DNA of 64,000 nt from contig CABJBA010000002.1 in assembly GCA_902363735.1 (NCBI GenBank), forward strand, positions 248,001-312,000, in the 5' to 3' direction. The notes under the pieces are model-generated. The model saw only the letters and a list, made by a program, of their open reading frames with translations, had not been told where the DNA came from and did no database searches. Both the position numbers and the translations under genes were made by a program. The stretch is from Clostridiaceae bacterium (GTDB taxonomy: Bacteria > Bacillota > Clostridia > Lachnospirales > Lachnospiraceae). This document shows, piece after piece, positions 38,170 to 64,000 of this stretch (position 1 is its first letter; every line of letters begins with the position of its first letter).

Positions 38170-40191
38170 GTGAAAATAATAAGGAGCACCTTATTTATAT
38201 TAATTTGTTTTCTCTTTCTTTCTGTTTCCTTTTGTTCCTTTGGCGAGGGGATAGCGAGTGAAAAGAGCGGTCTGGATGTTACCTTTGTCATGGACTACAG
38301 CGGTTCCATGAAAAACAATGATCCGGACCGCACTGCCATCGGGATGGTAAAGGCATTTATTGATACGGTTTACAGCGCTGATATCAGAATCGGATTTGTA
38401 GCGTACAATGACCAGATTCTCTCTTCGTCAGCACCTGTTTCTGTCAGGACCGAGGAGGAGAGAGAGTCGCTGAAAGGGCTGATGGACTCTGCCGGTTATC
38501 TGGGAAACACGGACATTGGACTGGGATTGAACTATGCATACGGAATGACCGGACAGGAAACAGGGCGCAAACGTGTGATGGTTTTGATTTCAGATGGAGA
38601 AACAGATTTAAAAGGCTCCTTAACGGGAAGGACCCGGGAAATCTCTGACCAGGATTTGAAAAATGTGGTGGAAACGTTCCGGTCGGAAGAGGTACCGGTT
38701 TATACAGTAGCTTTTGGCAGATATGAGGGAAACAGTGAGGCTTTAAAGGAAATTTCCAGTGGGACCGGGGGAGAAAATTATACGGTTGAAAGACCGGAAG
38801 CCCTGATTGAGGTGTTGTATGGAATATTTCATGATAATATGGCTTACCAGATCCAGGAAATATCCAATGGAATATATGGGGAAGGTAATCAGAGCCTGCG
38901 TCTTAAGCTGGATGAATCCTACATAGATGAAATGGCAGTTCTCATGATTTCTCCTCAGCAGGTGGGAGATACCACAGTCTTTTACGGAGAGCAGCAAATA
39001 AAACCGGTTAATCTGACTCATTATTCTGTGGCAAAAGTGTGGGAGGTGGAAACAGATGTTAAGGAAATGACCATACAGACCCATACGGCAAAAAACCAGG
39101 AATTGAAAACATATCTGATCAGCTACAGGAACCTGATTCCGGTTCTGGAGATAGAAGAATCCGTAGCAAGAAACCAACCCCTTTCTTACCAGATCTATTT
39201 TAAAGATAAAAGCGGTACCGTAATTGCTGATGAGTCATTTTATAAAAATTTCATCCCCAAATTAGAAATATATGGAGAGGGACAACGGGAAAAAGGCAAA
39301 AAAGAGCTGGAAATATCCATCCAAAATGGAATCCTTGCAGGAGAAATGGTTCTGCCCCGGTCAGGAACTTATTACATAGAATCACGCCTTGACGATGTTA
39401 TGGAATCCTGTGTCTTTGATACGGTACGAATCCAGGTCATCAACACTCCTCCGGCCGGAGGACTTCCGGAGAATATCCGTTACAATTCCCTTACAAAAGA
39501 AAAACGGTTTGCTCTCGATGAGTATTTTACTGATTCCGATGGAGACAGCCTTTCTTACGAATTAGACCAGTCCCCCACAGATCTGGCAGAGGTCAGTCTG
39601 GATCAGGGAATTCTTTCCGTAAAGCCTTTAAAGCCCGGAAACGGAGTCCTGATCCTGAAGATTTCCGATGGAGAGGCGGCGGCTTCCTACACATACTTCA
39701 TCAGTGTGGTGCCTTTGTGGAAAGCCTATTGGTGGGTTCTTGTTCTGGCAGCGGCAGTCTTAGGGGCAATCCTTTGGAAGATTCTTTACAAGCCTAAGCC
39801 TGAACTGGAAGTAATCACAGAAGAAAAGGCAAATAACCGTTTTCAGGGAAAGATGGATGGATATTTTATGTGCCAGCCGGAGAATGAAGATGAAATTCCA
39901 CCTCTCACATTCCCCTTATACAAGATCAGGGATAACCGGGTCAGCATTGGAGATCTGATGAAGAATTATCCAGGGGCATCTGACCGCATGGGACTGGACC
40001 GGATCTATTTGATTGCAGATGAGAACCGGAAGATGATTCTGTACCATTCCTCAGATTCGGTCATTATGCTGGGAAGTTCTATTTTGTGCAAAAACCTCAG
40101 GTACAGTGTATGTTTTGGGGATATTATCTCCATTACGTCTCCTAACGGAGCTTATGATTTGGAAATTCACTATATTTCCATGATACAGTAA
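38170..40191 (+). CDS. Membrane-anchored von Willebrand factor A protein
   Basis: 673 residues. Signal peptide 1-29 (hydrophobic LFILICFLFLSVSFCSFG). vWA domain about 34-210 with an intact MIDAS motif DYSGS (42-46) and VLISDGETDLKG. Then beta-rich segments, including a cadherin-like module (DEYFTDSDGDSLSYELDQSP), one transmembrane helix at about 517-537, and a ~135-residue C-terminal part on the other side. Start is GTG 38170 behind GGGGGA. As first gene of the CIS operon with an outside vWA and inside tail, it could anchor or dock the machine at the envelope; that role is inferred. vWA proteins alone are not diagnostic of secretion. Confidence 0.8.
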   Translation: MKIIRSTLFILICFLFLSVSFCSFGEGIASEKSGLDVTFVMDYSGSMKNNDPDRTAIGMVKAFIDTVYSADIRIGFVAYNDQILSSSAPVSVRTEEERESLKGLMDSAGYLGNTDIGLGLNYAYGMTGQETGRKRVMVLISDGETDLKGSLTGRTREISDQDLKNVVETFRSEEVPVYTVAFGRYEGNSEALKEISSGTGGENYTVERPEALIEVLYGIFHDNMAYQIQEISNGIYGEGNQSLRLKLDESYIDEMAVLMISPQQVGDTTVFYGEQQIKPVNLTHYSVAKVWEVETDVKEMTIQTHTAKNQELKTYLISYRNLIPVLEIEESVARNQPLSYQIYFKDKSGTVIADESFYKNFIPKLEIYGEGQREKGKKELEISIQNGILAGEMVLPRSGTYYIESRLDDVMESCVFDTVRIQVINTPPAGGLPENIRYNSLTKEKRFALDEYFTDSDGDSLSYELDQSPTDLAEVSLDQGILSVKPLKPGNGVLILKISDGEAAASYTYFISVVPLWKAYWWVLVLAAAVLGAILWKILYKPKPELEVITEEKANNRFQGKMDGYFMCQPENEDEIPPLTFPLYKIRDNRVSIGDLMKNYPGASDRMGLDRIYLIADENRKMILYHSSDSVIMLGSSILCKNLRYSVCFGDIISITSPNGAYDLEIHYISMIQ

Positions 40192-40271
40192 AAGTATGAT
40201 GTTCACGCTTTTGTCTGTACACAAAGGACAGAGGCGAATGAATAAAAGTTAAGAAAGAGGGAGTATTGCAT

Positions 40272-42440
40272 ATGGAAACAATTACACAGACCAACCGAAC
40301 GATCTTATTTTCTGAAATGAATCCTGAAAAGCTTAATCTTCTGACTTTAATCGGAGATGTTAGAGGAAAGACAAGCCTTGATGATGACAAGATCAAGGAA
40401 ATCAACGAAACACTTCTGGTGGAAAGCTTTGAAGAATTTTTAGAGAAATTTGCCCCAGTTGTCTATTCCTGGTGTGATGCCAACACAGGGAGCATTCAGT
40501 ACAGCCTGGTCAACCCGGAAAATATACCGGATAACTGCATTACAGAAATACCGCTTAATGAAATGAATGATCTGCTTAACATGCTGATTACGCTACAGGA
40601 TGCAAAAGGCTCCCTGGGAGTGGCAAATGTGGATTTTAAATTCAGCAATGTTCTGGACATGATATCTCCCAAAAAGATTATGGAAGACATCCGTCAGGTG
40701 CGGAGAGAGGTTCAATACACCTACGGCCAGTACATGGAGCTGGATGAAGAAGATCCCAAACGTCTTGATCTGGGCGATAAGCTGAATTACCAGTTCGAAC
40801 AGGCCAGCCATAATTATAACAATGTGCTTGCCATGCTCCCTCTTGCCATTGAGGACATAAAAACCCGTCTGCTTTTGGGAGACGGGGAAACAGCCCAAAG
40901 CGGTCAGGAATTTAAAGCAGGACTTTTAAGCATGGGAGATGACGGAGAATTAAAGATTCTGGAGATGAAGCAGGAGGAAGGAACTCAGCTGGCCATCGTC
41001 GATGACCAGATCAACACCAGTCTGATCCAGACCTTCCGGGATGATTACGATGCCCTTAATGAGAACCAGTCCGATTATGTGAGAGAACTGGTAGTCAGGA
41101 CCTTCTGTCCTCTGGGTTCCACAGTCGAAAGCTCTGTGGACAGGGAAGCGGAGGTAAATAACTACAATACCTACCTGGAATTTTATAAAAAGAGCAAGGA
41201 TGACTTTGTAAAAGCAGTCAAGCCCCTTATTGAAAAAATTTTAGGGGTGAAGGCATTCTTTGACCAGTACCGGGTAAAGGAAAAAGGAATGCAGCCTAAG
41301 CTCCTGATTACCAACACTCCTTTGGAAATGATGGTAAAGTCAAGCAACCTGCCAAGACTTCTGACTTATTTAAATACCACCAATGATAAAAATGAATTTG
41401 AAAACACCATTTGGTTTGGAATCGTTCCTGATGTGGAACTGAACCAGTCCGGAGACGGAAAGCTGCAGAGAATGAGGTTTGCCGGAAACCAGAAAGTAAA
41501 AAAACCTGGAACCAATTCCATGGAAAGCCTTGCAACCCTGATGAATGCCATCAACCCATATAAGATAACCACATTTTTCAGCTTTTCCACCGGAGAAGAG
41601 AGCACATTTAATTATGTGGCAACAGAAGGAATCGGTATGTTTAAGGACAAGTGTACTCCTCTGATGAAGAAGGAGTACAGCGAGTTCGTAGTTCCCTGCA
41701 TTCCCAACATCACCATTATACCGAAAGATAAGTCCGGGCTGATTCTGGACAAGCGTATGGTCATTGATGACAACGGAAACGTGGCTCTTTCCCGGGAGAA
41801 AGAGGATGTGATGAAGATGTGGATTGAAGGCGTATATGTGGGAGCTGCTTACGGAGCCGCCGGAATAGCTGCCTCATGGCAGTGCCCGGAATACTTAAAG
41901 CAGAGATTCCCCAACACCAGTATGGAGTATCCGGGGGTGCGTTATGACATAGAGACGGGGGATAATGCCCTTCTGGTCACCACCAGCATGACAAAGGAAA
42001 TATCAGGATTTACCAATGCCATTAAAAATTCCATTAACAACACCGGTTTTGGATTTGTTTTCACCTCAGACAACGCCCAGCACAAGGGCAAGGAAATTAA
42101 AAATGTTATGGTCTATAAGGCCAGGAACTTGCTGAGCAACGGAACAGAATTTGAACCGATCTACAAGACCCTTCTGGTCACCTATATTGAGAGAATACTC
42201 CGGTTTTACAGCGGAGACTTTAAGAAAGACAAGATACTGCAGTTCTTCAGCAACAATCCCAACAGCCAGAAGAGCAAATGGGATGCAAGCCGTGAGTATG
42301 TCAACTCCCTGCTTCAGGACGGGGATGAACTGGATTACAGCATTGATGATAAAAACGGTATCTGCAATATTCAGCTGACCTTCAGCAATACCACAAGAAA
42401 CTTAAAGGTGGAGCTGACCAGAAAGGGTCAGACCGCATAG
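40272..42440 (+). CDS. Contractile-sheath protein, apparent TssB-TssC fusion
   Basis: 722 residues. Residues 1-205 carry a TssB-like pattern: a short strand region, LVESFEEFLEKFAPVV, and VDFKFSNVLDMISPKKIMED, which parallels TssB's F-K-S-D-D-F-P segment and its following helix. The rest is TssC-like: NEFENTIWFGIVPDVEL, YVGAAYGAAGIAASWQCP, a handshake-like strand near NALLVTTSMTKEISGF, and C-terminal ETLLVTYIERILRFY-type and NSLLQDGDELDYSI segments. TssB plus TssC would be ~660 aa, near this length. AGAGGGAG precedes ATG 40272. The adjacent tube genes support a sheath role. Family assignment is by motif and context only. Confidence 0.68.
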   Translation: METITQTNRTILFSEMNPEKLNLLTLIGDVRGKTSLDDDKIKEINETLLVESFEEFLEKFAPVVYSWCDANTGSIQYSLVNPENIPDNCITEIPLNEMNDLLNMLITLQDAKGSLGVANVDFKFSNVLDMISPKKIMEDIRQVRREVQYTYGQYMELDEEDPKRLDLGDKLNYQFEQASHNYNNVLAMLPLAIEDIKTRLLLGDGETAQSGQEFKAGLLSMGDDGELKILEMKQEEGTQLAIVDDQINTSLIQTFRDDYDALNENQSDYVRELVVRTFCPLGSTVESSVDREAEVNNYNTYLEFYKKSKDDFVKAVKPLIEKILGVKAFFDQYRVKEKGMQPKLLITNTPLEMMVKSSNLPRLLTYLNTTNDKNEFENTIWFGIVPDVELNQSGDGKLQRMRFAGNQKVKKPGTNSMESLATLMNAINPYKITTFFSFSTGEESTFNYVATEGIGMFKDKCTPLMKKEYSEFVVPCIPNITIIPKDKSGLILDKRMVIDDNGNVALSREKEDVMKMWIEGVYVGAAYGAAGIAASWQCPEYLKQRFPNTSMEYPGVRYDIETGDNALLVTTSMTKEISGFTNAIKNSINNTGFGFVFTSDNAQHKGKEIKNVMVYKARNLLSNGTEFEPIYKTLLVTYIERILRFYSGDFKKDKILQFFSNNPNSQKSKWDASREYVNSLLQDGDELDYSIDDKNGICNIQLTFSNTTRNLKVELTRKGQTA

Positions 42441-42469
42441 ACATGCCCCAATAAGGCATTGAATAACTA

Positions 42470-42494
42470 CTGTATCCCAAAGCCGGCAATACAG
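42470..42494 (+). other. Small hairpin between sheath and tube genes
   Basis: CTGTAT (42470-42475) and ATACAG (42489-42494) in the 100-nt gap before the first tube gene. No T-run; may stabilise the tube mRNA end after processing. Confidence 0.3.
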
Positions 42495-42540
42495 GCTTAT
42501 GGATTATAAAAAATTATTTATTGAGAATGGAGGACGTAAT

Positions 42541-42969
42541 ATGGGACTCAGAATGAAAATCACAGGCAGCGAATCAATAGAGCTGCGTGAGACAAGTATC
42601 ACCAACGTAGTGTTTGGAGCGGACATTCCCCATGATTCCAATGCCAGGTCCACAGACCTTGGCTCAACGGTACTGGTGGAAGGAAAGATCCTGGCTGCAG
42701 TAAACGGAGAGGCTGCTGACGATACCAGCAAGCTGGCCAGGTGGTCTCTGGTTCCGGCAGAAAATGCAGACTGCTACCGGAATGTGCAGATCGACGTGGT
42801 CAGTGCCTCCCAGGTAGTGCGCCAGATCACAGTTCCCAATGCATTTGTGGTTGACTACACAGAAGACTTTACAGATGAAACAGGAACCGGTGTATTCAAA
42901 CTTCTTGTTAAACAGAAAAAAGACAAGATGGTTTCCCTGAAATTCGAAGGCGGATTCAGCGGAGAATAA
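42541..42969 (+). CDS. Hcp-like tube protein 1
   Basis: 142 residues, all beta-strand-like, the size of a phage tail-tube or Hcp ring subunit. It is a paralogue of the next gene: both share [37 protein letters not shown] and KQKKDKM. Homologues in clostridia are sometimes labelled membrane-associated protease, for which no catalytic residues can be seen. Position directly after the sheath gene is the standard order for contractile systems. ATG 42541 follows ATGGAGGACG. Confidence 0.72.
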   Translation: MGLRMKITGSESIELRETSITNVVFGADIPHDSNARSTDLGSTVLVEGKILAAVNGEAADDTSKLARWSLVPAENADCYRNVQIDVVSASQVVRQITVPNAFVVDYTEDFTDETGTGVFKLLVKQKKDKMVSLKFEGGFSGE

Positions 42970-43002
42970 TCAGGAGGAATAAGAGAAAGGAAGGAACAAA
43001 TT

Positions 43003-43428
43003 ATGGGATTTACATTAAAAGTGGAAGGAACGTCTACCATTGATTTAGGAAACATCAGCATTACAGGAGTTAAATTCAGAACAGATATTCCCCATGATTC
43101 CAATGCACGTTCCACTGACCTGGGGAGTACAGTAGAGATTTCAGGAAAGATATTAACAGCAGTTGACGGAGATCCTTTTGACTCCACAAGACAGCTGGGC
43201 CTTTGGTCTTTGGTTCCCGCAGAAAAGTCAGACTGCTACCGGAAGGTGACCATTGAAGTCATTGCAGCTTCCCAGGTAGTGAGGAAATATACATATCCCA
43301 ATGCATTTGTAGTGGATTACAAAGAAGACTACGGTGACACAGAAGGTGTTGGAACATTCAGGCTTATTGTCAAGCAGAAAAAAGACAAGATGGCGCAGAT
43401 CGCTGTGGAAGGCGGATACAGCGTGTAA
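43003..43428 (+). CDS. Hcp-like tube protein 2 (paralogue)
   Basis: 141 residues, more than half identical by eye to tube protein 1 across the whole length, with the same [17 protein letters not shown] core. Divergence is greatest at the N-terminal strands and around residues 50-65 ([10 protein letters not shown] versus NGEAADDTSK), parts that could face the sheath or the spike. Two tubes may build a mixed tube or separate tube and initiator/cap rings. AGAAAGGAAGG precedes ATG 43003. An attenuator hairpin follows. Confidence 0.72.
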
Positions 43429-43434
43429 ACATGC

Positions 43435-43463
43435 GGAGGCTGCCGAATCGGTGGCCTCCTTTT
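43435..43463 (+). terminator. Attenuator hairpin after the tube genes
   Basis: GGAGGCTGCC (43435-43444) pairs with GGTGGCCTCC (43450-43459), ten pairs with two G-U, loop GAATC, then TTTT. The short T-tract suggests partial termination. It would leave sheath and tubes, needed in many copies, more abundant than downstream regulatory and spike genes. Confidence 0.7.
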
Positions 43464-43481
43464 GATAAGGGAAGAAAACAC

Positions 43482-43898
43482 ATGCTTGATTATTATAAGA
43501 TTCTTGAAGTAAGCCCTCAGGCAGCAGATAAGGACATTAAGGCAGCCTACCGGAAGCTGGCTAAAAAATACCACCCGGATGTGATCAAAGATGATCCGGA
43601 AGGAAATAAAAAGATCTATGAAATCCAGGAAGCCTACGGGGTCCTGGGAGATGAAGAGAAGAGAAAGAAATATGACGCCGCCTTAAAGGGGACGGGAAAC
43701 AAAGAAAAGCCAAAGTCCTGGGAAGGAGAACGGGAGGCGGCTCCTGATATGAGCCAGTTTGAACGTTTTTTTGGTTTTCAGCCGGGGAAAGGGATGGAGA
43801 CCTACCGGGATAAAAGACAGGCGGCAGGCAGAGCGGAAGGGCCTATTAAGCCGGAGGAAATGTTTGCTGCATTCTTTGGGACCGGAAAAGGAAAGTGA
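43482..43898 (+). CDS. J-domain (DnaJ-like) protein
   Basis: 138 residues. J-domain 1-65 with intact HPD (31-33) in [11 protein letters not shown], followed by a polar tail without zinc fingers or the DnaJ C-terminal substrate domain. J-domains stimulate Hsp70 ATPases, and an Hsp70-like gene lies 3.7 kb downstream in the same operon. ATG 43482 follows AAGGGAAG; the upstream frame runs through the attenuator. Likely a dedicated co-chaperone of the injection system. Confidence 0.88.
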
Positions 43899-43915
43899 CA
43901 GGAGCAGATAATAAA

Positions 43916-44482
43916 ATGAAGAATAACAGAGAAACGAAGATCAGGCTGGATATCACGATTTTGATTATTTCCTGTATCTTTGCTGCTGCGGCCTACGTGC
44001 TTCAGATTCCCCAAACTCTCTTTTACATGGTGGTGATTCTGTCATTATTTCTGTGTATGGCTGTAATTGCTGACTTATACAGATTAAACGGCCGGAAGGA
44101 TTATGAAAGAGAGTCAGCAGCCGGAGGCAGAGGCAGCCAGTATGGGGCATGTGAACTGATTTTGCTTAATGAGCAGGAAAAACCGGTAAAATCATGGGAT
44201 TTAACTGGTGAAATATCAGTGATTATCGGGCGGAAAAGTAAAGATGAGGATGTGGATGTGGATCTTGGAGAATGCGAATACAGTGCCATGATTGATGTTC
44301 AGCATGCCACCCTGAATTTTTGCCTCAATTCATGGTATTTGGAGGATCTGGATTCCCACAATGGAGTGAAGGTGAGAAAAATAGAGGATGGGGTATGCTA
44401 CCGCCTGGTTCAAAGCCGTCCATGCAGGATCAGTCCGGGAGATGTGATCTATATTGCCAATACCAAACTTTTGTTTACATAG
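43916..44482 (+). CDS. Membrane FHA-domain protein
   Basis: 188 residues from ATG 43916 (AGGAG 11 nt upstream); a GTG at 43895 overlapping the dnaJ stop is an alternative. Two hydrophobic helices (about 10-30 and 33-54), then a cytosolic FHA domain (about 95-188): VIIGRKSKDEDV, VQHATLNF, and DSHNGVKV supply the GR, histidine and asparagine positions of phosphothreonine-binding FHA. FHA proteins control type VI secretion assembly by binding phosphorylated threonine. Confidence 0.82.
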   Translation: MKNNRETKIRLDITILIISCIFAAAAYVLQIPQTLFYMVVILSLFLCMAVIADLYRLNGRKDYERESAAGGRGSQYGACELILLNEQEKPVKSWDLTGEISVIIGRKSKDEDVDVDLGECEYSAMIDVQHATLNFCLNSWYLEDLDSHNGVKVRKIEDGVCYRLVQSRPCRISPGDVIYIANTKLLFT

Positions 44483-44531: not shown

Positions 44532-45029
44532 ATGAGTTTGACAAGGTGCCCGTCAGGACATGTTTATAATTCCATACGTTATGGAAATACATGCCCTTAC
44601 TGTAAGATGAAAAGCCAGGAAAATGAGGAAAGCGGGAAACCCATTGGATTTGAACCGCCTGTTGAGCTTTTACAGGAGGAAGTGAAACCGGTATGCGGCT
44701 GGCTGGTCTGCATTGCCGGAGCCAGAGTGGGAATGGATTACAAAATCCACAGTGGGAAAAATTTTGTGGGCCGGGGAGATGATATGGATATTCAGATCAT
44801 TGGTGACAATGAGATTAACCGCCGCAATCACGCTGTTGTGGTATACGATCCCAAAAAACGCAGCACAGTGCTTTTGCCGGGGGATTCTGAAGGTCTGGTT
44901 TATCTGAATGAAGAAGCTGTCTATATTCCTTCTGATATCAAGCCTTACGATACCATAGAACTGGGAAAGAGCCGGTTTTTGTTTATTCCTCTTTGCGGAG
45001 ATAACTTTGAATGGAATGATAAAACATGA
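44532..45029 (+). CDS. Zinc-ribbon and FHA-domain protein
   Basis: 165 residues. N-terminal one-zinc ribbon-like motif with Cys6, His10, Cys21 and Cys24 (CPSGH and CPYC). FHA domain about 70-160: NFVGRGDDMDIQI, EINRRNHAVVVYD, then GLVYLNEEAVY. The typical serine of FHA is replaced in the RRNH segment, as in many divergent FHA domains. No membrane helix. AGGAG precedes ATG 44532. Ends overlapping the PP2C gene. Confidence 0.82.
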   Translation: MSLTRCPSGHVYNSIRYGNTCPYCKMKSQENEESGKPIGFEPPVELLQEEVKPVCGWLVCIAGARVGMDYKIHSGKNFVGRGDDMDIQIIGDNEINRRNHAVVVYDPKKRSTVLLPGDSEGLVYLNEEAVYIPSDIKPYDTIELGKSRFLFIPLCGDNFEWNDKT

Positions 45030-45901
45030 TGATGTCTGATATAAGAGCAGCATGGATTTTGGGAATATTGTTTATGGCTATGATTTTCCTTGTTCTGAAA
45101 CGGATACAGTGCGGTTCTTCTCTTTACAGGGAAAGTGCCGGAGACAGATCAGGGGAATGGGCCGTCAGCCAGACAACCGGAAATCAGGTAATCCAGGCTG
45201 ATTTTGTGGATGTATATAAAAACCATGCAGGTGTTATGGGTGTTCTGGCAGATGGAATCGGAAAAGAGAATACGGGAAAACTCTGTGCCCAGATGGCTGC
45301 TGATGCCCTTTTAGACGGTTTTGAGCCATATCATACCGTAAGCAATCCCCGGTATCTGTTCCGGACCGCTTTTTTTGAGGCCAACAGCCGCATACAGAAG
45401 ACCATAGGAAATCGGCGGGGAGGCGCCTGTCTGGGAGCTGTTTACACCGATGGTGCTATGCTTCATTATGGATTGGCGGGAAATATCCGGATTGCCTTGT
45501 TCCGGGGGGAAGAATTAATTCCATTAAGCAAAGGGCAGACCATGGATGTGCTGGCAGTCAATGCCTATGAAGAGGGGCGTCTGACCAAAAAAGAGACCAT
45601 ATGGAGCCTGGAAGAAACCAGAATCTGGAACTACCTGGGAAAAGACGGTTTCCGGGAAATAGAGCTGTGCGAGCAGCCGGTCCGGTTAAAGGCAGGGGAT
45701 GTGATCTTTCTGGCCAGCTGCGGAATTTTTGAAGAGCTGTCCTGGGCAGAAATTGAAGATGTTCTTACAGGAGAAATGACATTACAGGAAAAAGCAGACT
45801 GCCTGGTAATGGCGGCTGACCAAAAGCCGGGCCAGGATAAAGACAATGGAAGCGTGCTGCTTTTGAAAGCGGAGGTTTTAAATGAGAAGGATCAATTCTG
45901 A
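45026..45901 (+). CDS. Membrane PP2C-like phosphatase 1
   Basis: 291 residues. One membrane helix (about 8-26), then a PP2C-like domain: GVLADGIGKENTGKLCAQMA (the DGxG metal motif), GGACLGAVYTDGAMLHYGLAG, LKAGDVIFLASCGIFEEL. First residues MMM give three possible starts at 45026, 45029 and 45032; the first overlaps the FHA stop. Some metal-site aspartates look altered (for example ASCGIFEE instead of a TDG), so catalytic activity is uncertain. Proposed to reverse threonine phosphorylation read by the FHA proteins. Confidence 0.8.
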   Translation: MMMSDIRAAWILGILFMAMIFLVLKRIQCGSSLYRESAGDRSGEWAVSQTTGNQVIQADFVDVYKNHAGVMGVLADGIGKENTGKLCAQMAADALLDGFEPYHTVSNPRYLFRTAFFEANSRIQKTIGNRRGGACLGAVYTDGAMLHYGLAGNIRIALFRGEELIPLSKGQTMDVLAVNAYEEGRLTKKETIWSLEETRIWNYLGKDGFREIELCEQPVRLKAGDVIFLASCGIFEELSWAEIEDVLTGEMTLQEKADCLVMAADQKPGQDKDNGSVLLLKAEVLNEKDQF

Positions 45902-52064: not shown

Positions 52065-52076
52065 GAGGTGAACCTT

Positions 52077-53620: not shown

Positions 53621-54232
53621 ATGTATTCAGATGAAAAAATAGCAATGCTTGAGCGGTATAGAAGACAGACTTTGCGTGCAGAGGAAGCGGAACGTGAAGA
53701 GGCGGCTTTGGCCCGGGAAGAGCTTTTGACCCTGGAAGAAGCAATTGCAGGGATTAAAAAGAGAGTATTAAAGCTTCATACAGGTGAAACCTTGGAATTT
53801 GAGAATAGAGTTTATTTTGAAGAAAACATCCCAGTGCCTATTTTTAAAAACTTTTATCAGGCATCAGAAGAAGGGGAGGAATCAGCAGTATTTGTCAACC
53901 ATGACCATGAGCTGAGCCAGACTGTTTTATGGCTGAGAGAAAATATCCGCACAATTACCATGGACCAGTGGGCCAATCTGCTGGTAAATGGGATGGCAAG
54001 AAATAATTTATTTGCCAGAGTTTTAAAAAAGAAGCAGCTGGAAAATATGGAATACCTCTGTTATGAAGTCCCCAGCGGAAAAGGCTGGATTTATAATGTG
54101 ATGTTTCGCATGAAAGGAAAAGATAAACGCTTTACAGGTACTTTTAACTGTATGAAGAAAGAAAAGGACACTTATGGCATTGTTCTGGAAGCCTTGGTCT
54201 GGCACATGGATCAGTGGTTTGGAACACAGTAA
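53621..54232 (+). CDS. Unrecognised soluble protein with N-terminal coiled coil
   Basis: 203 residues behind AAGGAGG. N-terminus 1-60 is a highly charged helix rich in Glu/Arg (LRAEEAEREEAALAREELLT). The C-terminal domain (about 65-203) ends in a beta-rich stretch, WIYNVMFRMKGKDKRFTGTF, and DTYGIVLEALVWHMDQWF. Its length and layout recall small DUF1795/Eag-type spike or effector chaperones, but only loosely. It lies directly before the first VgrG, the usual position for a chaperone or adaptor of the spike. Confidence 0.6.
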   Translation: MYSDEKIAMLERYRRQTLRAEEAEREEAALAREELLTLEEAIAGIKKRVLKLHTGETLEFENRVYFEENIPVPIFKNFYQASEEGEESAVFVNHDHELSQTVLWLRENIRTITMDQWANLLVNGMARNNLFARVLKKKQLENMEYLCYEVPSGKGWIYNVMFRMKGKDKRFTGTFNCMKKEKDTYGIVLEALVWHMDQWFGTQ

Positions 54233-54246
54233 AGGGGGCGGAGTCA

Positions 54247-55707: not shown

Positions 55708-55718
55708 GAGGCGGTCTT

Positions 55719-57143
55719 ATGGCATATGCATTGGATCAGATTTGCATAGAAGGATTGACATTTGAAAAACTGGAAGAACTGAAGATTGAATGCCGCCCCG
55801 GAGAGCATGGGAGTCTGTATATCAGCGGTTTCCTGTCGGAAGACAAAGGAAAGAATACATTGTTTGAAATGAATGAATACGCTCCCATATCGGTTTCTGT
55901 GCAGGTGAAAGGTAAAAAGCAGACAATCTTTGCAGGAGTAGTGACAGAGGCAGTGGTCCAGGGCTCTGGAGCGTTTCACCACATAGAAGTAAAGGCAAGA
56001 ACTTACAGCTTATTCATGGATTTAAAAAAGAAATCCAGATCATTTCAGAATACAGCCATGACCTATGGACAATTAATTCATGCTGTTTTAGCAGATTATC
56101 CGGGCAGTGACATCAATCTTACAATTGAGGACAAACCCTTAGGGGAAATATCCGTTCAATACAGAGAAACGGACTGGGTATTTTTAAAGAGGATGTTATC
56201 ACAGCTCAATGTGCCTCTGGCCTGTTACCCTGGCATGGAGCAAATTAAACTTTATGGCGGAATTCCCTCTATGGCTCAAGGGGCCTGGGGATATAGACGG
56301 GTCAGGGCGGAAAAAGAGATGGGGGTCTGCAATTACTGGCAGCAGCAGGGAGCGGCTGTAGGGGATGTGGATTTTCTGATTTATACAGTAGAGACTGATC
56401 ATACCCCAGAGCTCTTTGAACAGATTAATTACCAGGGAGAGTCACTCCGGATTCGAGGATTTGCCTATACGCTGGAACAGGGCTTGCTGCACTGCCAATG
56501 TGAGCTTCAGAAACAGACAGGTATTTTGGAGGCGAAGCAGTATCCTATGCATTTAATCGGAGCAGCTCTTGAAGGAAAGATTCTGGATGTGGCGGGAGAA
56601 AAGGTAAAAGCCCAGTTGATGATTGACGGGGAAAACAGTCAGGGTTCTGTATATTGGTTTCCATATTCTACCTTATCCGCTTCTCTCGATGGAAGCGGCT
56701 GGTATTATATGCCAGAACGGGGAGACCATGTCAGAATTTATTTTCCGTCAAAGCATACGAAAGACGTAATTGCCGTCAGTTCTGTCAGTGACTATGACGG
56801 AACCGGTGGCGGCGGATCGGGGGGAGACCGGATGGGATCTCCGTCCACCAAATATTTAAGCAACGTCCACGGGCAGGAAATGAGTCTGGGGGAAGACGGA
56901 GTTAACTTAACATGTGCCGGAGGTGCCGCCAGTCTGAAAATTGGAAAGGATGGCAAGGTATCACTTTCTGCGCAAAGTGAAATCATGGTCGGAGCCCAGA
57001 ATAATATAGACATTACGGCGGAAACGGCTGTGGTGCTTCATGGCAGTAAATGTGTATCCATCATGTGTTCGCAGGGAGGTCAGATTCAGGCAGCAGAAGA
57101 TGGAAACCTGTATATCAAGGGTACTGAGGTAAAGATAGATTAG
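55719..57143 (+). CDS. VgrG-like spike protein 2
   Basis: 474 residues behind AGGAGGCGG. Same architecture as spike 1: VQYRETDWVFLKRMLSQLN in the gp27-like part, GSGWYYMPERGDHVRIYFPS in the OB-fold, and beta-helix tail (GEDGVNLTCAGGAASLKIGK; NNIDITAETAVVLHGSKC). Differs in the N-terminal ~60 residues and in the Gly-rich linker GTGGGGSGGDRMG, so it probably makes a mixed trimer or an alternative tip for another cargo. Confidence 0.88.
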   Translation: MAYALDQICIEGLTFEKLEELKIECRPGEHGSLYISGFLSEDKGKNTLFEMNEYAPISVSVQVKGKKQTIFAGVVTEAVVQGSGAFHHIEVKARTYSLFMDLKKKSRSFQNTAMTYGQLIHAVLADYPGSDINLTIEDKPLGEISVQYRETDWVFLKRMLSQLNVPLACYPGMEQIKLYGGIPSMAQGAWGYRRVRAEKEMGVCNYWQQQGAAVGDVDFLIYTVETDHTPELFEQINYQGESLRIRGFAYTLEQGLLHCQCELQKQTGILEAKQYPMHLIGAALEGKILDVAGEKVKAQLMIDGENSQGSVYWFPYSTLSASLDGSGWYYMPERGDHVRIYFPSKHTKDVIAVSSVSDYDGTGGGGSGGDRMGSPSTKYLSNVHGQEMSLGEDGVNLTCAGGAASLKIGKDGKVSLSAQSEIMVGAQNNIDITAETAVVLHGSKCVSIMCSQGGQIQAAEDGNLYIKGTEVKID

Positions 57144-57153
57144 GAGGATGCAG

Positions 57154-58128
57154 ATGACCAGAAATGAGGCATTGGAGCAGTTCAGAGAAAACGAAAAAAA
57201 GGCAATGGATCAAATAAAAGCAGAATTCTGGAATCATGCCCAGGAACAGGCAGAGACTCTATCCGCCGTTTTAAAGCAGGTATTTCGCAGAGTCAGGAAA
57301 GCGGCAGAGGAATCAGAAAAGGAAAAGATCATGTTTATGTACTTTTCTTTGCTGAGGTCAGATGTACTGAATCAAAGTTATCAGGTTCTGGTTCAGGCTT
57401 TTGATGCCAGATGGTATATGGATACAGAGCCGGTCTGCCTTACTTTTTCCCTTGATTTTCTTTTCCGGGTTCTTCAGCCTTTTAGGGATCAGTGCAGGGA
57501 AAATATCAGGAAATACATGGGAAAGGTGAATCAGTATGATGTAGAAAACTTATATCAGAATCTGGTTATGGAGTGCAATTCCATGCTGGCGGCCCAGCTT
57601 CGCTTTATGTTCCGGGATGTGGAACAAAATAAGGATTTTTCGGAAATACCCAAGGAAGAATCCTGGAGCATCCGCTGGGGAGAATACCGGGATAACAGTG
57701 AGGTGATTGCCAGTGTTGACCGGATACCTAAGGATCAGAAGGAGTGGGAACGCTCTGTTCAGAAAGCAGCCGGCCAGGAAGATGAGATGGTTTCCGGCTA
57801 TTGGTACAAAACCAATTTAAAGGATTCCATATGCCGGAACCAGTGTCTGTATTTTACGGTTTTTGAAGATTGCAGCCTGAAACATGTGGTTTTTGACGGC
57901 TCCAATTTAACCGGAGTCCGCTTTAAGAACTGTCTGCTAGAAGAATGCAGTTTTAATGGTGCGATTTTACGGCAGGCGGATTTCGAGGGCTGTATATTAA
58001 AAGATAACAATTTTGACGGTGCAGATATGTCCCATACATCCTTCACTGAAAAAGAGGTGTCGGAAATTGATATCAGCTCGGAACAGGCTGAAGTTATTAT
58101 AACCTGGCAGGAGGTGGCCATCCAATGA
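57154..58128 (+). CDS. Pentapeptide-repeat-containing protein
   Basis: 324 residues. AGGAGG at 57142-57147 places the start at ATG 57154, six nt downstream; ATG 57148 abuts the Shine-Dalgarno sequence and is less likely. Helical N-terminus 1-220, then about ten short repeats of the A/C-D/N-L/F-x-x type (DGSNLTGVRFKNCLLEECSF; NGAILRQADFEGCILKDNNF), forming a small right-handed beta-helix. Similar proteins are found next to VgrG/PAAR genes as adaptors or effectors. Overlaps the next gene by ATGA. Confidence 0.75.
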   Translation: MTRNEALEQFRENEKKAMDQIKAEFWNHAQEQAETLSAVLKQVFRRVRKAAEESEKEKIMFMYFSLLRSDVLNQSYQVLVQAFDARWYMDTEPVCLTFSLDFLFRVLQPFRDQCRENIRKYMGKVNQYDVENLYQNLVMECNSMLAAQLRFMFRDVEQNKDFSEIPKEESWSIRWGEYRDNSEVIASVDRIPKDQKEWERSVQKAAGQEDEMVSGYWYKTNLKDSICRNQCLYFTVFEDCSLKHVVFDGSNLTGVRFKNCLLEECSFNGAILRQADFEGCILKDNNFDGADMSHTSFTEKEVSEIDISSEQAEVIITWQEVAIQ

Positions 58129-58643
58129 GATTTTTTACGATGCAGCAGGATATCACATTGCCTGATGTGATTCAGTTTAGAGATTTTGATATCTGTGGTC
58201 CAAGACATATCTTTTATAAAGAGGATGAAGCTGATTTGAATGACTCCACCGTGATGTATTTAAAAGAGGGAGGGGAGATAATCCCGGACTTTATTCAAAG
58301 TCCTATTCCATTGGTATCAGATAAAGTTAAAAGGGTTTTAGATATGTATGAAGATGACATGGTGTTTAAGAGCGTGGTTTTTGCAAACAAAGAGGAAGAG
58401 ACTATGGTACTTTACCATCAGCTGCTTTTGGAACGCATGGATATGTTATCTGACCAGACAGAGTTTTATTCCAATGGGAGTGTAAAACGGCTGGCTCTGG
58501 ATGAAAAGAAAATAGGAGAGCACAAGGCATTCATGCTGAAGGATAAGAGATTTCCCCATCCGTTTATCAGCCTGGAGGTGGCAGAAAGTATGCTTCGCAG
58601 ACATGTGATTGGAATCATTTTGAAGGAAGTTGAGGTGATTTAA
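58125..58643 (+). CDS. Unrecognised protein, weak Imm11-like features
   Basis: 172 residues. PDVIQFRDFDICGPRHIFYK, IPDFIQSPIPLVSDKVKRVL and VVFANKEEETMVLYHQL follow the general layout of the Imm11/DUF1629 immunity family, where a strand-rich N-terminus precedes a conserved V-L-x-x-Y region. The resemblance is loose. It sits between an adaptor-like gene and the PAAR-like gene, starting in an ATGA overlap. Could be an immunity protein or another spike adaptor. Confidence 0.55.
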   Translation: MRFFTMQQDITLPDVIQFRDFDICGPRHIFYKEDEADLNDSTVMYLKEGGEIIPDFIQSPIPLVSDKVKRVLDMYEDDMVFKSVVFANKEEETMVLYHQLLLERMDMLSDQTEFYSNGSVKRLALDEKKIGEHKAFMLKDKRFPHPFISLEVAESMLRRHVIGIILKEVEVI

Positions 58644-59162
58644 ATGCCGGATTTAAAAGATACCTATGTGGTTCACTGCTGCAGTGCTGCCTGTACAATG
58701 GGGATGCGGCCTAGTTACGTTGTATTACGCCAGTCCCATGGTGTATTCATGAGGGGACAGGCATTGATGACTGTAAAAGACTGCCAGCCAGAGATTAACA
58801 TCATTTGTTTTGGAGGGTGTTTTAGCATGGAAAATCCCTCTACCATTGAAGCGGCAGAGGAAGTGAAGAGAAAGATTGAGGAAGAAGCCCCGGATACATT
58901 TATAGATAAAATTATGAATCTTTTTGGCGGAAAAAAGAGTAAACAAGCAAAGCAGAATGATCCTTCAGCAGCTTTTGAAGGTCTGCCTCAGGTAGTGGGA
59001 AAGTGCGAACCCAAGATTGTGGGAGGGCAGGAGTGGGATAACGGAAAAGAAGATGTGGAAACTGATTCAGCCCATTCACTTTTGGGAGAAGCCAAGATTT
59101 TCTGTATGTATGGAGGCGAAATCAAGCTGGATAATGCAGGACAGCCAGAAGCCGGAGGTTGA
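58644..59162 (+). CDS. PAAR-like DUF4280 protein
   Basis: 172 residues. Starts at once after the preceding stop. The DUF4280 pattern is visible: VVHCCSAACTMGMRPSYVVL, GQALMTVKDCQPEINIICFG, a Gly-rich C-terminal LLGEAKIFCMYGGEIKLDNA. Cysteines at both ends (HCCSAAC, CFGGC, FCMYGG) are typical. DUF4280 members are the tip caps that sharpen VgrG spikes in several contractile systems. It directly precedes the VgrG-RHS gene. Confidence 0.9.
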   Translation: MPDLKDTYVVHCCSAACTMGMRPSYVVLRQSHGVFMRGQALMTVKDCQPEINIICFGGCFSMENPSTIEAAEEVKRKIEEEAPDTFIDKIMNLFGGKKSKQAKQNDPSAAFEGLPQVVGKCEPKIVGGQEWDNGKEDVETDSAHSLLGEAKIFCMYGGEIKLDNAGQPEAGG

Positions 59163-59164
59163 GA

Positions 59165-62100
59165 ATGAGGCAGCAGTATGAAAAACAGGCTGTAACAAAG
59201 GAAAAGGGGGTAGCCATGAACCTAAGATATAAAGAGCTGAAAATAGAGCTGGCATTGGAAGGTATCATTGGGGTTGAGTCCTTTCGTTTGAAGGAAGGCT
59301 TAAACCGTCATGCATTTCTTTCCATGAAGCTCCTGGCTGTTGAAGAAGATACGGAACAGATTGTTGCAATGGCTTCTGCAGAACCTATTGTTATTACTGA
59401 AACAGAGCGAACAGGTGGAAAGATCATCTTCCAGGGAAAGACAGAGACCGTTCGGCTGGAGGTAGAACATGGACTGCCTTATTTATACCTGGAAGCGTAT
59501 TCCTTTACAAAGGACTGGGAGCGGGTGGAGAAAAGCCGAAGCTTTTTAGATGGCTCCAAGACCTATATGGAAGTGGCCAAAAAGGTACTTTTGGATTATG
59601 GAAATACTGATATCAAAGATGAAGTGACCAGTGGAGCGGTCATTCCTGAGATGCTTTTGCAGTATGAAGAAAGTGACTGGGTATTTCTGCGGCGTTTAGC
59701 CAGTCATTTTGGCACATATCTCATCCCCGATGTTTCTGCCGACTGCGGAAAGGTCTACTTTGGCGTACCCCAAATTAATCATGGAAAGACTTTGAACAGT
59801 GAGGATTATGTGATTTTGAAAGACATGGCTCATTATGCAAAAGTATTGCGCCCAAAAGAAATTCTCCCGCAGGAAGCGGCTCAGTGGGAGATCCGCGGTC
59901 GTGAGTTTTTGTGGATGGGAGAAGAGGTCCTGTTTAACCAGATTCCTGTAGTGGTAACGGATGTAGACATTGCAACGGAATATGGAGAACTGATTTACCG
60001 GTATAAGCTTTCCAGAAGAGACGGAATGAAACGGGATAAAGAAAAGAATCCCAGGATTTATGGAATGAGCATTCCGGCCACTGTTAAGGAGCGCAGCGGG
60101 AACCGCATCCGGGTTCATTTTGATATTGATCCGGTGTATGAAGGAGGGGCAAAGGAAAAATATTTCACATACGCCATAGAGAGCAGCAGTTTTTACTGTA
60201 TGCCGGAGGAAAACAGCAGAGTACATATATATTTTCCGGATCATGATGAACAGAGTGCCATTGCGGTTCATGCCATTGGCAGCAAAGGCGGCGTAGGCGG
60301 CGGGAAAAAACCGGATAATAAAAGGTTTTCCGACCCAAGCGGCAGCGCTATGGACATGACTCCTCAGGATTTCAGCTTTACCTCTGATTCAGGCGGTTCT
60401 TCTGTTCTGTTTATCAGCGGAAGCGGTTCCGTGACCATGAACGGTAAGGATATCAGTATAACCACTCAGAAAGGAATGATGGCAGGAGAGGGTGGTGAGA
60501 GTCCAACTGAAAACCTGATGATCTGCGGTGGAAACAAGGTTACGTTAAGTATTGGTGACGGCGGAGCTGACATGATAACTTTAAATACAGAAGCCAATAT
60601 TGTATCAGCTTTTATTAAACAATCCGCAGATTTAAAACCGGCTCCCCAGCCATCTGCAGAGTCTGTAGAGGCAGATATCACTGCTGATGATGAAAATAAC
60701 CGCAATGCTATGAATGAAGCGGTTAAAAATGATTTGGTTGCAAAAAAACAAGCCAGCAAACAGAAATTTATAAAAGGTTTAAAAAGTATTGCAACTGTGG
60801 TGGCGGTTACTGCATTAGTGGTATGTACTGGAGGAGCAGCGGCCGTTACTCTGCCATTTGTTCTGGCAGCAGGAGCGAAAACCGTGTTTGCAGTGGCAGA
60901 TATGGCAGAGGGGGTAAGCGGACACAACCAAGTGAGTGCCCTGGATACGTCCCAGCCTGCGAACTTTTTGCGGGACAGCGTGTTCGGGGGAAATCAGGCC
61001 CTTTATGATCTAGCTTCCATGGGTACGGATATTATCTTTGATGTGGTTTCTGCAAATGCATTAAAGGGAACCGGTGCATTAAAAAAGATGAATGATCTTT
61101 TCTGCAAATCCGGACAGGTTACCAATATGGTAGCCAAAACAGGTGTCCAGGTTGTGGGCGGAATGATTGAAGACTACATGGTAACGGGGAAGATCAATCC
61201 TGTAAACACATTGACCAATATGGCCATAGGTATGACAAAGGGAACGGTTGGTTCATGGCTGAAAGGAAATGTTGTTAATAATCTGGGCCTTAACTCCAAA
61301 GTAGCTCAAAAGATTGCAGGAACCTTTATAGGTGCCGGAATTGATACAGGACTTGATATCAGCGTTGACAGTTTTATGGGAAGAGAAACAAACCTGATGC
61401 AGTCATTTTCTCAAAACCTTCTGGCAAATGGATTGGCGGAATATTTTGGTGAACCAATTGATGCTGTGACTGGTGGTTTTCTGATTGCAGCTACAGATTT
61501 CATTATCAGTGATTACCGGGAGTCTATACGAATTGCCAGAAAATATAATTCCAGCAATCAGACGGAAGGAATACTGGGAAAAGGCTGGGCATTTCCTTAT
61601 GAAGGAAGATTCTGCAAAGATGGAAACTGTGTCCATGTGACATTGGAAACAGGTCATAGCCTGATTTTTGAGTGGAATGGAGAAACCTATCAGAATGTTA
61701 CAGATGGCTGCGGTTGGTTTATGCTGCGGTCAGAGGAGGAAGAACTACATCTGTATGACCGAAAGAACCATAAAGAGTATCATTATGATAAAAGGGGTTA
61801 CTTGTTATCCATTAAGGATCGGAATGGACAGGCCATTACGTTTGATTACTGCAATGAGAACCTGGAAGGAATCACCACAGCTCTTGGATATCATTTAAGT
61901 CTTTCTTACCGGGAAGGCCGTCTGATTCAGATTATGGATAATATTGGACGAACCATACAGTACCGTTATAAAGATGGACTTCTGGCTGATGTTGTTCATA
62001 CGTCCCAGGGAGTCACCCACTATGATTATGACGGGAATGGTTATCTGATAAAAGCCACAGATCAGTCGGGTATTACTTATTTGGAGAACCGGTATGATTA

Positions 62101-64000
62101 CAAAGGAAGGGTTATCTTGCAGACTCTTGCCAACGGTGACATATACAGGGCAGAGTATCTGGAAGATGAGCGGAAAAATAAGGTTTATACCAGTGTTGGT
62201 GACAAAACTGTAGTTTATAATTACGGGAAAAAGGGACAGGTTCTCCAGATGTCTTATGCTGATGGGACAGCAACTACCTATGAGTACAGTGAGGATGGAG
62301 GATACCGCACTGGGGAAATCAGCCGGTTGGGACATGAAACACGTTGGATTTATGACAAAGCAGGACGGAAGATTGAAGAGCATAAGGCGGGTGGTTTAAA
62401 GGCCAGCTATTCTTATGATGGGGAAAATAACTTAATTGCTGTCTATGATAATTCAGGCCGTGAATGGCGTTATGAATATGATGGAAATCATAACCGGACA
62501 GAGGAACGTGAAAAGACCGGAGACGGAAATGGCTGGGCAAAGAAGAGCTTCTGTTATGACCGGAAGGGGCGTTTAATTTCAGAAGTAGATGCTCTTGGAA
62601 ACGAAAAGCTGTACAGTTACAAGGAGGGACAGGGAAGTCCATATCTGATCCGTCAGGAAGATGGGGAAGAAATTTCCCGTGAATATGACTCCATAGGCCG
62701 TAAGATGGCGGAAGAAGACAGCTATGGGCGTACGGAGTTTGGCTACAATCCAGGTAATTACCGAACGATGGTTCGCAATCCCCTGGGACATGAAACCCAC
62801 TGGATGTATGATGGAGCCGGACGTATGCAAGCTATGTATGTTCCAAAGGCCTGGAGGGAGAAAAAGGGAGAATACAGTTACCGGTATGATTTCTTGAATC
62901 GTCTGATTGATACGGTACGGCCTGATGGAAGCCATGAACGGCAATACAGGGATGGGGAAGGAAATATCCTTAAGAAAGTGCATCCAAATGCCTATCAGGA
63001 GGAGACGGATGACGGGATTGGCATTTCCTTTGATTATGATGAAGACGGAAACCAGATCAGGATTCATTATCCGGATGGAGGCTGTGAGCGGTTCTTTTAT
63101 AATGCAGAAGGAAACAGGATTAAGCATGTTCTGCCGGAATATTATCAGAGTGAACTGGACGATGGGGAGGGCTGGCAGTATGAATATGACCCGGCAGGCC
63201 GCTTGCTGCAAGTGCAGAATCCGGAAGGATATGTAGAAGCGGCATATACCTACAGTCTGAGCGGTGATGTATTGACAGAGACCGATGCACTGGGGCGTAC
63301 TGCTTATTACCGTTATGATCTTCGTGGAAATGTAACAGAGATTTTAAAGCCTGCCAGGGAAGAGCAGGGAGAGGTATTCTACCAGAGGACTTCCTTTGCT
63401 TATGATGCCAATCAGAATAAGATCAGGGAGCAGCGTTTTGGCGGCTACTGGAACTTGAATGGAGAATTGACTAGAGAGGGAGGCAGTAGTCTTACTTTAA
63501 GTTTCTCCTATGATGAAAGAAACCGCCTGATTCGTGTGGAAGATGGGCTGGGAGCCGTAGTACGCTACCGATATGATGGACGGGGAAACAGGATTTATGA
63601 AGAGAGGAAGATCAGTGATGAGGTGAAGCAGGTCATCCGCTGTTCCTATTTCTCGACCGGATATTTAAAAGAGCGAAAGGAAGAGCTAAACAGTGGCCTT
63701 GAGCCGGTTCCGGGTGAATCAAAATTCGCTGTAACCAGATTTGCATATGATGAAAATGGAAACAGGACAAAGATTGTCACTCCTGAAGGATATGAGATAT
63801 TCCGTGAGTATGATTCTTGTAACCGTTTGATATCAGAACGAAGTGTGGATGGGGAAAATGGCATAGACCGTACAGTTTCCATTTCCTATGATGCTGCCGG
63901 AAATATAACAAAGGCAGTGAGACAGGGAAAAGATGGGGAGCCTTGGGAGATTCAGTATGATTATGACTTAAAGGATCGGATTATTCATGTAGGAGACTGC
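59165..64000 (+). CDS. Giant VgrG-RHS fusion protein, 3' end beyond the window
   Basis: An unbroken frame of 1612 codons to the window edge. ATG 59165 has GGAGG six nt upstream; ATG 59216 is an alternative start. VgrG gp27-like part about 18-290 (LLQYEESDWVFLRRLASHFG), OB-fold about 297-375 (SSFYCMPEENSRVHIYFPDH), short spike segment about 416-440. Hydrophobic stretch about 539-582 and a Gly/Ala-rich region follow. DUF6531-like signature at about 762-799 (EPIDAVTGGFLIAATDFIIS; the matching YNSSN). Then YD/RHS repeats from ~876 to the end (YDKAGRKIEEHKAGG; YRYDLRGNVTEIL). A polymorphic toxin of this type has a variable C-terminal toxin, here unseen. It is probably secreted as part of the spike. 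Confidence 0.93.
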   Translation, partial: MRQQYEKQAVTKEKGVAMNLRYKELKIELALEGIIGVESFRLKEGLNRHAFLSMKLLAVEEDTEQIVAMASAEPIVITETERTGGKIIFQGKTETVRLEVEHGLPYLYLEAYSFTKDWERVEKSRSFLDGSKTYMEVAKKVLLDYGNTDIKDEVTSGAVIPEMLLQYEESDWVFLRRLASHFGTYLIPDVSADCGKVYFGVPQINHGKTLNSEDYVILKDMAHYAKVLRPKEILPQEAAQWEIRGREFLWMGEEVLFNQIPVVVTDVDIATEYGELIYRYKLSRRDGMKRDKEKNPRIYGMSIPATVKERSGNRIRVHFDIDPVYEGGAKEKYFTYAIESSSFYCMPEENSRVHIYFPDHDEQSAIAVHAIGSKGGVGGGKKPDNKRFSDPSGSAMDMTPQDFSFTSDSGGSSVLFISGSGSVTMNGKDISITTQKGMMAGEGGESPTENLMICGGNKVTLSIGDGGADMITLNTEANIVSAFIKQSADLKPAPQPSAESVEADITADDENNRNAMNEAVKNDLVAKKQASKQKFIKGLKSIATVVAVTALVVCTGGAAAVTLPFVLAAGAKTVFAVADMAEGVSGHNQVSALDTSQPANFLRDSVFGGNQALYDLASMGTDIIFDVVSANALKGTGALKKMNDLFCKSGQVTNMVAKTGVQVVGGMIEDYMVTGKINPVNTLTNMAIGMTKGTVGSWLKGNVVNNLGLNSKVAQKIAGTFIGAGIDTGLDISVDSFMGRETNLMQSFSQNLLANGLAEYFGEPIDAVTGGFLIAATDFIISDYRESIRIARKYNSSNQTEGILGKGWAFPYEGRFCKDGNCVHVTLETGHSLIFEWNGETYQNVTDGCGWFMLRSEEEELHLYDRKNHKEYHYDKRGYLLSIKDRNGQAITFDYCNENLEGITTALGYHLSLSYREGRLIQIMDNIGRTIQYRYKDGLLADVVHTSQGVTHYDYDGNGYLIKATDQSGITYLENRYDYKGRVILQTLANGDIYRAEYLEDERKNKVYTSVGDKTVVYNYGKKGQVLQMSYADGTATTYEYSEDGGYRTGEISRLGHETRWIYDKAGRKIEEHKAGGLKASYSYDGENNLIAVYDNSGREWRYEYDGNHNRTEEREKTGDGNGWAKKSFCYDRKGRLISEVDALGNEKLYSYKEGQGSPYLIRQEDGEEISREYDSIGRKMAEEDSYGRTEFGYNPGNYRTMVRNPLGHETHWMYDGAGRMQAMYVPKAWREKKGEYSYRYDFLNRLIDTVRPDGSHERQYRDGEGNILKKVHPNAYQEETDDGIGISFDYDEDGNQIRIHYPDGGCERFFYNAEGNRIKHVLPEYYQSELDDGEGWQYEYDPAGRLLQVQNPEGYVEAAYTYSLSGDVLTETDALGRTAYYRYDLRGNVTEILKPAREEQGEVFYQRTSFAYDANQNKIREQRFGGYWNLNGELTREGGSSLTLSFSYDERNRLIRVEDGLGAVVRYRYDGRGNRIYEERKISDEVKQVIRCSYFSTGYLKERKEELNSGLEPVPGESKFAVTRFAYDENGNRTKIVTPEGYEIFREYDSCNRLISERSVDGENGIDRTVSISYDAAGNITKAVRQGKDGEPWEIQYDYDLKDRIIHVGDC

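Follow-up and report, generated by a model that had tools for sequence, protein, structure and literature searches.

Do the Lachnospiraceae and their relatives carry a contractile injection system (CIS) of a class not so far described? The question is raised by 21 co-oriented genes on the forward strand at positions 38170-64000 of a 64,000-nucleotide stretch (hereafter, the window) of contig CABJBA010000002.1, from a Clostridiaceae bacterium (assembly GCA_902363735.1). Here, genes for a sheath, tube, spike and VgrG-RHS fusion are linked with others encoding J-domain, Hsp70-like, FHA, PP2C and vWA proteins and three core proteins. A first-pass annotation had read the cluster as a possibly undescribed Gram-positive injection machine with its own chaperones and phospho-signalling, and that reading is supported here by a sheath fold, relatives of Hcp, VgrG and PAAR-like proteins, synteny and co-occurrence. 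Judged from a predicted structure and family matches, the cluster very probably encodes a CIS. It is also quite likely that it represents a new CIS class, found in Lachnospiraceae and relatives and working by the mechanism proposed below.

Sheath, tube and spike

The central component is a 724 amino-acid (aa) protein whose predicted model has a contractile-sheath fold, the best structural matches being the sheaths of Streptomyces CIS, PVC and AFP. This feature of the CIS superfamily is therefore present at the level of the fold in a predicted model, and the protein is probably a single-chain sheath, resembling those of extracellular CIS (eCIS) and phages at the fold level only. Another model of the same protein, made from 13 close sequences, was uninformative (pLDDT 34.8). 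One gene stands in place of the two-gene TssB/TssC sheath of the type VI secretion system (T6SS). The initial label of a TssB-TssC-like sheath thus holds for the sheath, through its predicted fold, but not for a specific relation to TssB-TssC, given the single gene and the lack of a significant hhalign match. Named homologues are annotated as 'transcriptional regulator' or 'hypothetical protein', and those 98-99% identical carry the name Lacrimispora sp., marking the host as Lacrimispora-like. In one genome two sheath genes alternate with two Hcp-like genes (L093:9303-14928), which suggests two sheath types.

An inner tube of Hcp/gp19 type, another feature of the superfamily, is indicated by two weak matches: that of the Hcp family profile (A9) to the solved Hcp1 structure 6bdc, presumably from Flavobacterium (E 0.0017), and that of a distant Hcp-like member (L094) to TssD (6.5e-4; 20 bits against a cut-off of 25.8). 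Weak as they are, the matches are specific and agree with the two Hcp-like tubes first named. The VgrG/gp27-gp5 hub and PAAR-like tip are likewise present (Phage_GPD 1e-13, DUF4280 1.3e-20). VgrG 2 finds T6SS VgrG structures in the PDB (best 1.1e-4, 7q5p), and DUF4280 was previously put forward as PAAR-like (PMC5014421, PMC5349215).

The genes are listed below with their coordinates, strand and main evidence (TM, transmembrane).

37106..38005, +, LytTR-type response regulator, a possible regulator and not core; labelled from reading the sequence, no profile
38170..40191, +, vWA protein with a hydrophobic segment (signal peptide) at its N-terminus, a VWA domain, TM 513-531 and a tail (PF00092 5.5e-16)
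40266..42440, +, probable single-chain contractile sheath, 724 aa (predicted fold)
42499..42969, +, Hcp/TssD-like tube protein 1 (family profile matches 6bdc Hcp1; TssD on a distant member)
43003..43428, +, Hcp/TssD-like tube protein 2 (61% identical to tube protein 1)
43431..43898, +, J-domain co-chaperone with HPD motif (PF00226 2e-23)
43895..44482, +, FHA protein 1 (FHA1), two TM helices (PF00498 3e-9; hydropathy)
44532..45029, +, FHA protein 2 (FHA2), Cys-rich N-terminus, no TM (PF00498 7e-4; conserved Cys)
45026..45901, +, PP2C-like phosphatase 1 (PP2C1), one TM (NCBIfam Stp1 5.7e-16; hydropathy)
45882..47591, +, PP2C-like protein 2 (PP2C2), TM 260-278, TPR-like tail (NCBIfam Stp1 3.5e-17; TPR sub-threshold)
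47588..50077, +, Hsp70/actin-fold ATPase-like protein (motifs in 13 members)
50083..51372, +, u429, core protein, candidate baseplate subunit (co-occurs with the sheath)
51348..52064, +, u238, core protein, candidate baseplate subunit (conserved down to L094 and L095)
52068..52853, +, u261, core protein, candidate baseplate/adaptor subunit (15 aligned members)
53009..53512, +, small protein with two TM helices (relatives in 0 of 34 loci, most flanks ending earlier)
53621..54232, +, u203, fast-evolving, precedes VgrG, candidate effector chaperone (role inferred)
54214..55707, +, VgrG 1, spike hub (Phage_GPD 6.4e-9)
55719..57143, +, VgrG 2, spike hub (Phage_GPD and PDB matches as above)
57148..58128, +, pentapeptide-repeat protein with an additional N-terminal domain, adaptor role proposed (relatives in 7 loci, first 20 long stretches)
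58125..58643, +, Imm11-like, recurrent spike-module gene (Imm11 E 0.0077, sub-threshold; relatives in 7 loci, first 20 long stretches)
58644..59162, +, DUF4280 PAAR-like tip (PF14107 1.3e-20)
59159..64000, +, VgrG-RHS fusion effector, cut at the window end (YD repeats 4e-42, VgrG-like N-terminus, two hydrophobic segments)

Every open reading frame of the first-pass list is present in the single direction given for it, with the tight spacing claimed (intergenic gaps of -25 to 155 bp from the vWA gene onward). Family matches were obtained for its vWA, J, paired FHA, paired PP2C-like, paired VgrG, PAAR-like and VgrG-RHS proteins, FHA2 falling just below threshold (20.4 bits, cut-off 20.7) and both PP2C-like proteins far below the equivalog cut-off of the Stp1 model. 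Additional to that list are the pentapeptide protein, the Imm11-like protein, the 203-aa protein before VgrG, the small membrane protein and the upstream LytTR regulator. Three further genes had been called probable baseplate proteins; the genes are there, and as candidates for a baseplate wedge (gp25/TssE, gp6-like) their products, u429, u238 and u261, gave no informative match either to Pfam, NCBIfam, PHROGs and PDB sequences or by hhalign. Profile and sequence searches with u203 were similarly uninformative, and all four proteins produced only scattered chance matches, each in one member. Local GC ranges from 23 to 50%. Elsewhere in the window, a purine riboswitch aptamer lies at 9628-9723.

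Recurrence of the cluster and variation at its toxin end

The comparison of neighbouring gene sets suggested at first pass shows that the gene order recurs across related loci, and the composition of the cluster is therefore not due to chance. Among 34 loci from named genomes, taken with 10-kb flanks (one locus being only 3.2 kb), the sheath, both Hcp, FHA1, FHA2, PP2C1, PP2C2 and vWA genes are each present in 33, the Hsp70-like gene in 32, J in 31, u429 in 27, u238 in 24 and u261 in 8; losses of the later genes are due in part to contig ends and to the flank length. The LytTR-type regulator has a homologue in 15 of these loci. Some relatives, but not the window, have an extra gene of 422-439 aa between it and the vWA gene, whose product we would guess to be histidine-kinase-like. 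Longer stretches from further genomes contain the same set together with VgrG, DUF4280, Imm11-like and pentapeptide genes. Even where the sheath is only 25-27% identical, in genome G637, a single contig bears sheath, Hcp, J, FHA-like, PP2C2-like, u429, u238, Hsp70-like, u261 and VgrG-like genes.

The sheath occurs in 25 of 392 genomes from the order of Enterocloster citroniae (G002), which we take to be Lachnospirales, and in 9 of 391 genomes of the class. Within the order u429 is found in the same 25 genomes and the Hsp70-like protein in 27, of which 24 also have the sheath. Pairwise divergences of six families correlate, with r of 0.55-0.93. Record titles of carriers include Enterocloster, Eisenbergiella and Lacrimispora, which are gut bacteria.

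DUF4280 is more widely distributed, being present in 54 of the 392 genomes: 23 of the 25 with the sheath (the exceptions being G402 and G470) and 31 without. It was accordingly rejected as a marker specific to the system, its sheathless carriers including eCIS-type loci of the same order. Four of five DUF4280 loci from sheathless genomes carry Pvc16_N or phage-sheath genes: Pvc16_N adjoins DUF4280 in L132, L133 and L135, with AAA in L132, and a phage-type sheath does so in L134; the neighbours in the fifth, L136, lay outside the Pfam scan. There are thus two kinds of CIS in this bacterial order.

It had been considered that the VgrG and RHS genes might form an independent toxin locus. However, VgrG, DUF4280, Imm11-like and pentapeptide genes accompany the sheath cluster in divergent genomes. 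The VgrG-RHS gene extends past the window end, so that the window's own toxin tip is not visible, and variation was assessed by comparing the VgrG-RHS proteins of three relatives (L076, L078 and L080) in 150-column blocks. L078 and L080 share 25% identity in the last scored block, against 46-78% in the other blocks; in comparisons with L076 the contrast is weaker (9-21% against 22-64%). Of the RHS tips in three relatives, a MafB19-like deaminase makes up one, with Imm1 behind it, and a Tox-SHH nuclease another, with SUKH behind it; the third has no toxin match. Differing tips combined with immunity-type genes constitute a polymorphic antibacterial toxin pattern.

Signalling, chaperones and proposed mechanism

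Hydropathy indicates four membrane-anchored proteins in the cluster, namely FHA1 (two segments), PP2C1 and PP2C2 (one each) and the vWA protein (N-terminal and near 520). The vWA protein is proposed as a membrane anchor or sensor; an FHA fold for its tail was considered and found unsupported, with 14 or fewer columns aligned. The PP2C2 family matches the PP2C1 family by hhalign at 99.2%. PP2C2 (45882-47591) apparently lacks SDG, which we take to be the usual PP2C motif, having RGLWE instead, and so could be a pseudophosphatase; in PP2C1 the motif reads SCG, and in the L098 copy SDG. A PP2C2 relative of 1730 aa, some three times the usual length, is encoded at L127:515-5707 in G637. Inside another relative's cluster (L084:11535-14461) a ThiF (E1-like) gene adjoins an E2 (UQ_con)-FHA fusion, a pair whose domains mark it as a putative ubiquitin-like conjugation cassette within a CIS cluster.

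The threonine-phosphorylation pathway of T6SS consists of PpkA, PppA and Fha. This module, optional in T6SS, is resembled by the FHA and PP2C genes of the cluster and by kinases in one relative, G668. The absence of a kinase reported at first pass holds for the window, which has no kinase motif, but not for G668, the only one of 12 genomes searched to have kinases in its cluster stretches, with one in each of its two clusters (L098:8155-9027 and L095:4565-6247). One of these clusters runs J, vWA, kinase, sheath, Hcp, Hcp, FHA1, FHA2, PP2C1, PP2C2; the other, kinase, a 223-aa gene, Hsp70-like, sheath relative, u429, u238, u261.

In the J protein, 95% or more of 40 sequences keep each of the H, P and D of the HPD motif. 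The Hsp70-like protein displays the motifs of an Hsp70/DnaK actin-fold ATPase: DFGxxNTT, DCGGGTTD and LTGQ show little or no variation across 13 aligned members, and both phosphate motifs and an adenosine-type motif, as we would name them, are retained. At the level of the family profile the single match fell short of the cut-off, the L095 copy scoring 12.6 bits against HSP70 (E 0.039; cut-off 20.6) and the window copy having no Pfam match. The Hsp70-like label given earlier is hence sustained by the actin/Hsp70-type motifs but not by the profile. Two adjacent reading frames encode the protein at L094:935-3528 and L110:12935-15555, which may represent a broken gene or a two-gene form. At L124:12467-15040 a stand-alone member, in a stretch without any CIS gene, lies two small genes from an apparent GTPase that we take to be of dynamin type.

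The reported lack of a ClpV-type AAA+ ATPase and of TssJLM is borne out within the cluster. No Walker A pattern occurs in frames longer than 120 aa from 38170 to 64000, the search not extending to Clp ATPases elsewhere in the genome, and no ClpV/TssH was found. Neither was TssJLM by Pfam or NCBIfam (the 167-aa protein by Pfam only, VgrG-RHS by NCBIfam only), again within the cluster rather than genome-wide. Because the Walker A pattern is missing, the Hsp70-like/J pair is proposed for ClpV's job; that it serves as sheath assembly or recycling factors in place of ClpV is put forward tentatively.

In the mechanism that we envisage, tube and sheath would assemble in the cytosol on a baseplate of u429, u238 and u261, with the vWA protein, FHA1 and the TM-bearing PP2C pair providing the dock at the membrane. 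Assembly or firing would be licensed by Ser/Thr phosphorylation that FHA proteins read and PP2C proteins remove, on the model of the T6SS pathway, with a kinase acting in trans here and in cis in G668. On contraction, the spike of VgrG and DUF4280 would be driven, together with RHS toxins, into adjacent bacteria, and the Hsp70-like/J pair would replace ClpV in assembling or recycling the sheath. Contraction, delivery and cell anchoring are what we infer the machine to do, and on balance we lean towards a cell-anchored, antibacterial, phospho-gated mode. That it forms a third operating class of CIS, combining single-membrane anchoring, gating by vWA, FHA, PP2C and kinase, and an Hsp70/Hsp40 pair in place of a ClpV-type unfoldase for building or recycling the sheath, is a bolder proposal, whose chances we put a little short of even. 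A conserved CIS in Lachnospiraceae and relatives would extend contractile weapons to an abundant gut group, give the main structural protein a new annotation in place of 'transcriptional regulator', and open ClpV-free sheath assembly or recycling to testing.

Alternative readings and known systems

Several observations weigh against a new CIS class. Identity of the sheath depends on one predicted model, for which the Foldseek score alone is below significance, and no sheath was linked to the 724-aa protein by sequence in Pfam, NCBIfam, PHROGs, PDB, plasmids, phages, viral contigs or hhalign. PHROGs returned only two unknown families (E 0.08), phmmer against the PDB only unrelated chains, among them designed repeat proteins with a best E of 3.4e-4, and a PDB profile search with the sheath family nothing at E 10. 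Nor do u429, u238 and u261 show a match by which any baseplate subunit could be named. Homology of the Hsp70-like protein to DnaK is at motif level only, and of the three genomes having it without the sheath, one has a stand-alone member lacking the system (G518); the other two have a decayed remnant with a stop (G486) and a copy at a 3-kb contig edge (G623). One of the 25 sheath genomes, G431, is counted on a 78-residue piece with a stop. The genes of G668 are split between two loci, one of which lacks the Hsp70-like gene, u429, u238 and u261, as does the stretch from G334 (L093). Finally, in L003, L014, L020 and L033 what comes after the Hsp70-like gene is a relative of VgrG or u203, u429 and u238 not being seen within the flank; they must there be elsewhere or beyond reach.

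That the cluster is a true but divergent T6SS, its membrane complex and ClpV lost or replaced, is the strongest competing explanation, though on the unlikely side. T6SS, and especially T6SSiii of Bacteroidota, to which we understand TssD to be assigned, shares with it the Hcp/TssD-like tube, a VgrG hub nearest to T6SS VgrG, the PAAR-like DUF4280 tip, RHS effectors, FHA/PP2C genes and, in one relative, the kinase. The sheath N-terminus gave the lowest P of the TssB comparisons in the run, 0.031, which is not significant. Against this, the sheath is a single gene without a sequence match to TssB or TssC, TssC (PF05943) exceeds its cut-off in none of five genomes carrying the system, and TssJLM, ClpV and TssE, F, G and K go unrecognised in the cluster. 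Hhalign against TssB, C, E, F, G and K profiles (5-11 sequences each) found nothing significant, a weak test since T6SS families score nothing against each other. A BL21 region taken as T6SS yardstick contained no T6SS.

A released eCIS or tailocin-like particle, with the membrane phospho-proteins regulating only its production or lysis, would accord with the sheath being one chain, which it also is in eCIS and phages, and with the best structural match to Streptomyces CIS; we consider it less probable still. No tail-fibre receptor-binding protein was recognised in the cluster, where proteins without a family match remain, nor were a Pvc16-type cap and AAA+ ATPase; because the same Pfam library detects Pvc16_N in three, AAA in one and a phage sheath in another of the four DUF4280 loci above, the absence of cap and ATPase is informative. 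The four membrane-anchored proteins also argue against release, and relatives' RHS effectors and immunity-type genes fit neighbour killing. A decayed or domesticated prophage tail put to some non-injection purpose is very improbable: the 724-aa protein shares its fold with phage sheaths and CIS derive from phage tails, but neither the phage collection nor the viral contigs contain a relative of it, capsid, terminase and tape-measure genes are unrecognised in the cluster, gene order recurs in many genomes and toxin tips vary among relatives.

It is improbable that the gene set of the proposed new class has already been described; no description was found in open-access titles and the starts of abstracts, subscription papers and most preprints being outside that scope. 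Passages of PMC8651086 speculate, from PAAR neighbours, about a Gram-positive 'unknown phage-like translocation system', in which Firmicutes PAAR_H2 (DUF4280) genes adjoin Phage_GPD genes in neighbourhoods that lack conserved T6SS and eCIS genes. The pairing of DUF4280 and Phage_GPD is shared, although sheath, tube, signalling and chaperone genes do not feature in those passages. The T6SS-like CIS of haloarchaea (PMC11566945) is among the closest known systems.

Presumably the haloarchaeal gene set is of eCIS type, and we know of no Hsp70/J/FHA/PP2C module in it. With eCIS (Afp, PVC) and the cytoplasmic CIS of Streptomyces the present cluster shares a single-chain sheath, but its tube is nearer to TssD/Hcp and, unlike them, it has the FHA/PP2C/Hsp70-like/J gene set. 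The proposed cell-anchored mode is a likeness to T6SS, from which the system differs in its Hsp70-like/J pair, its vWA protein and its monoderm host.
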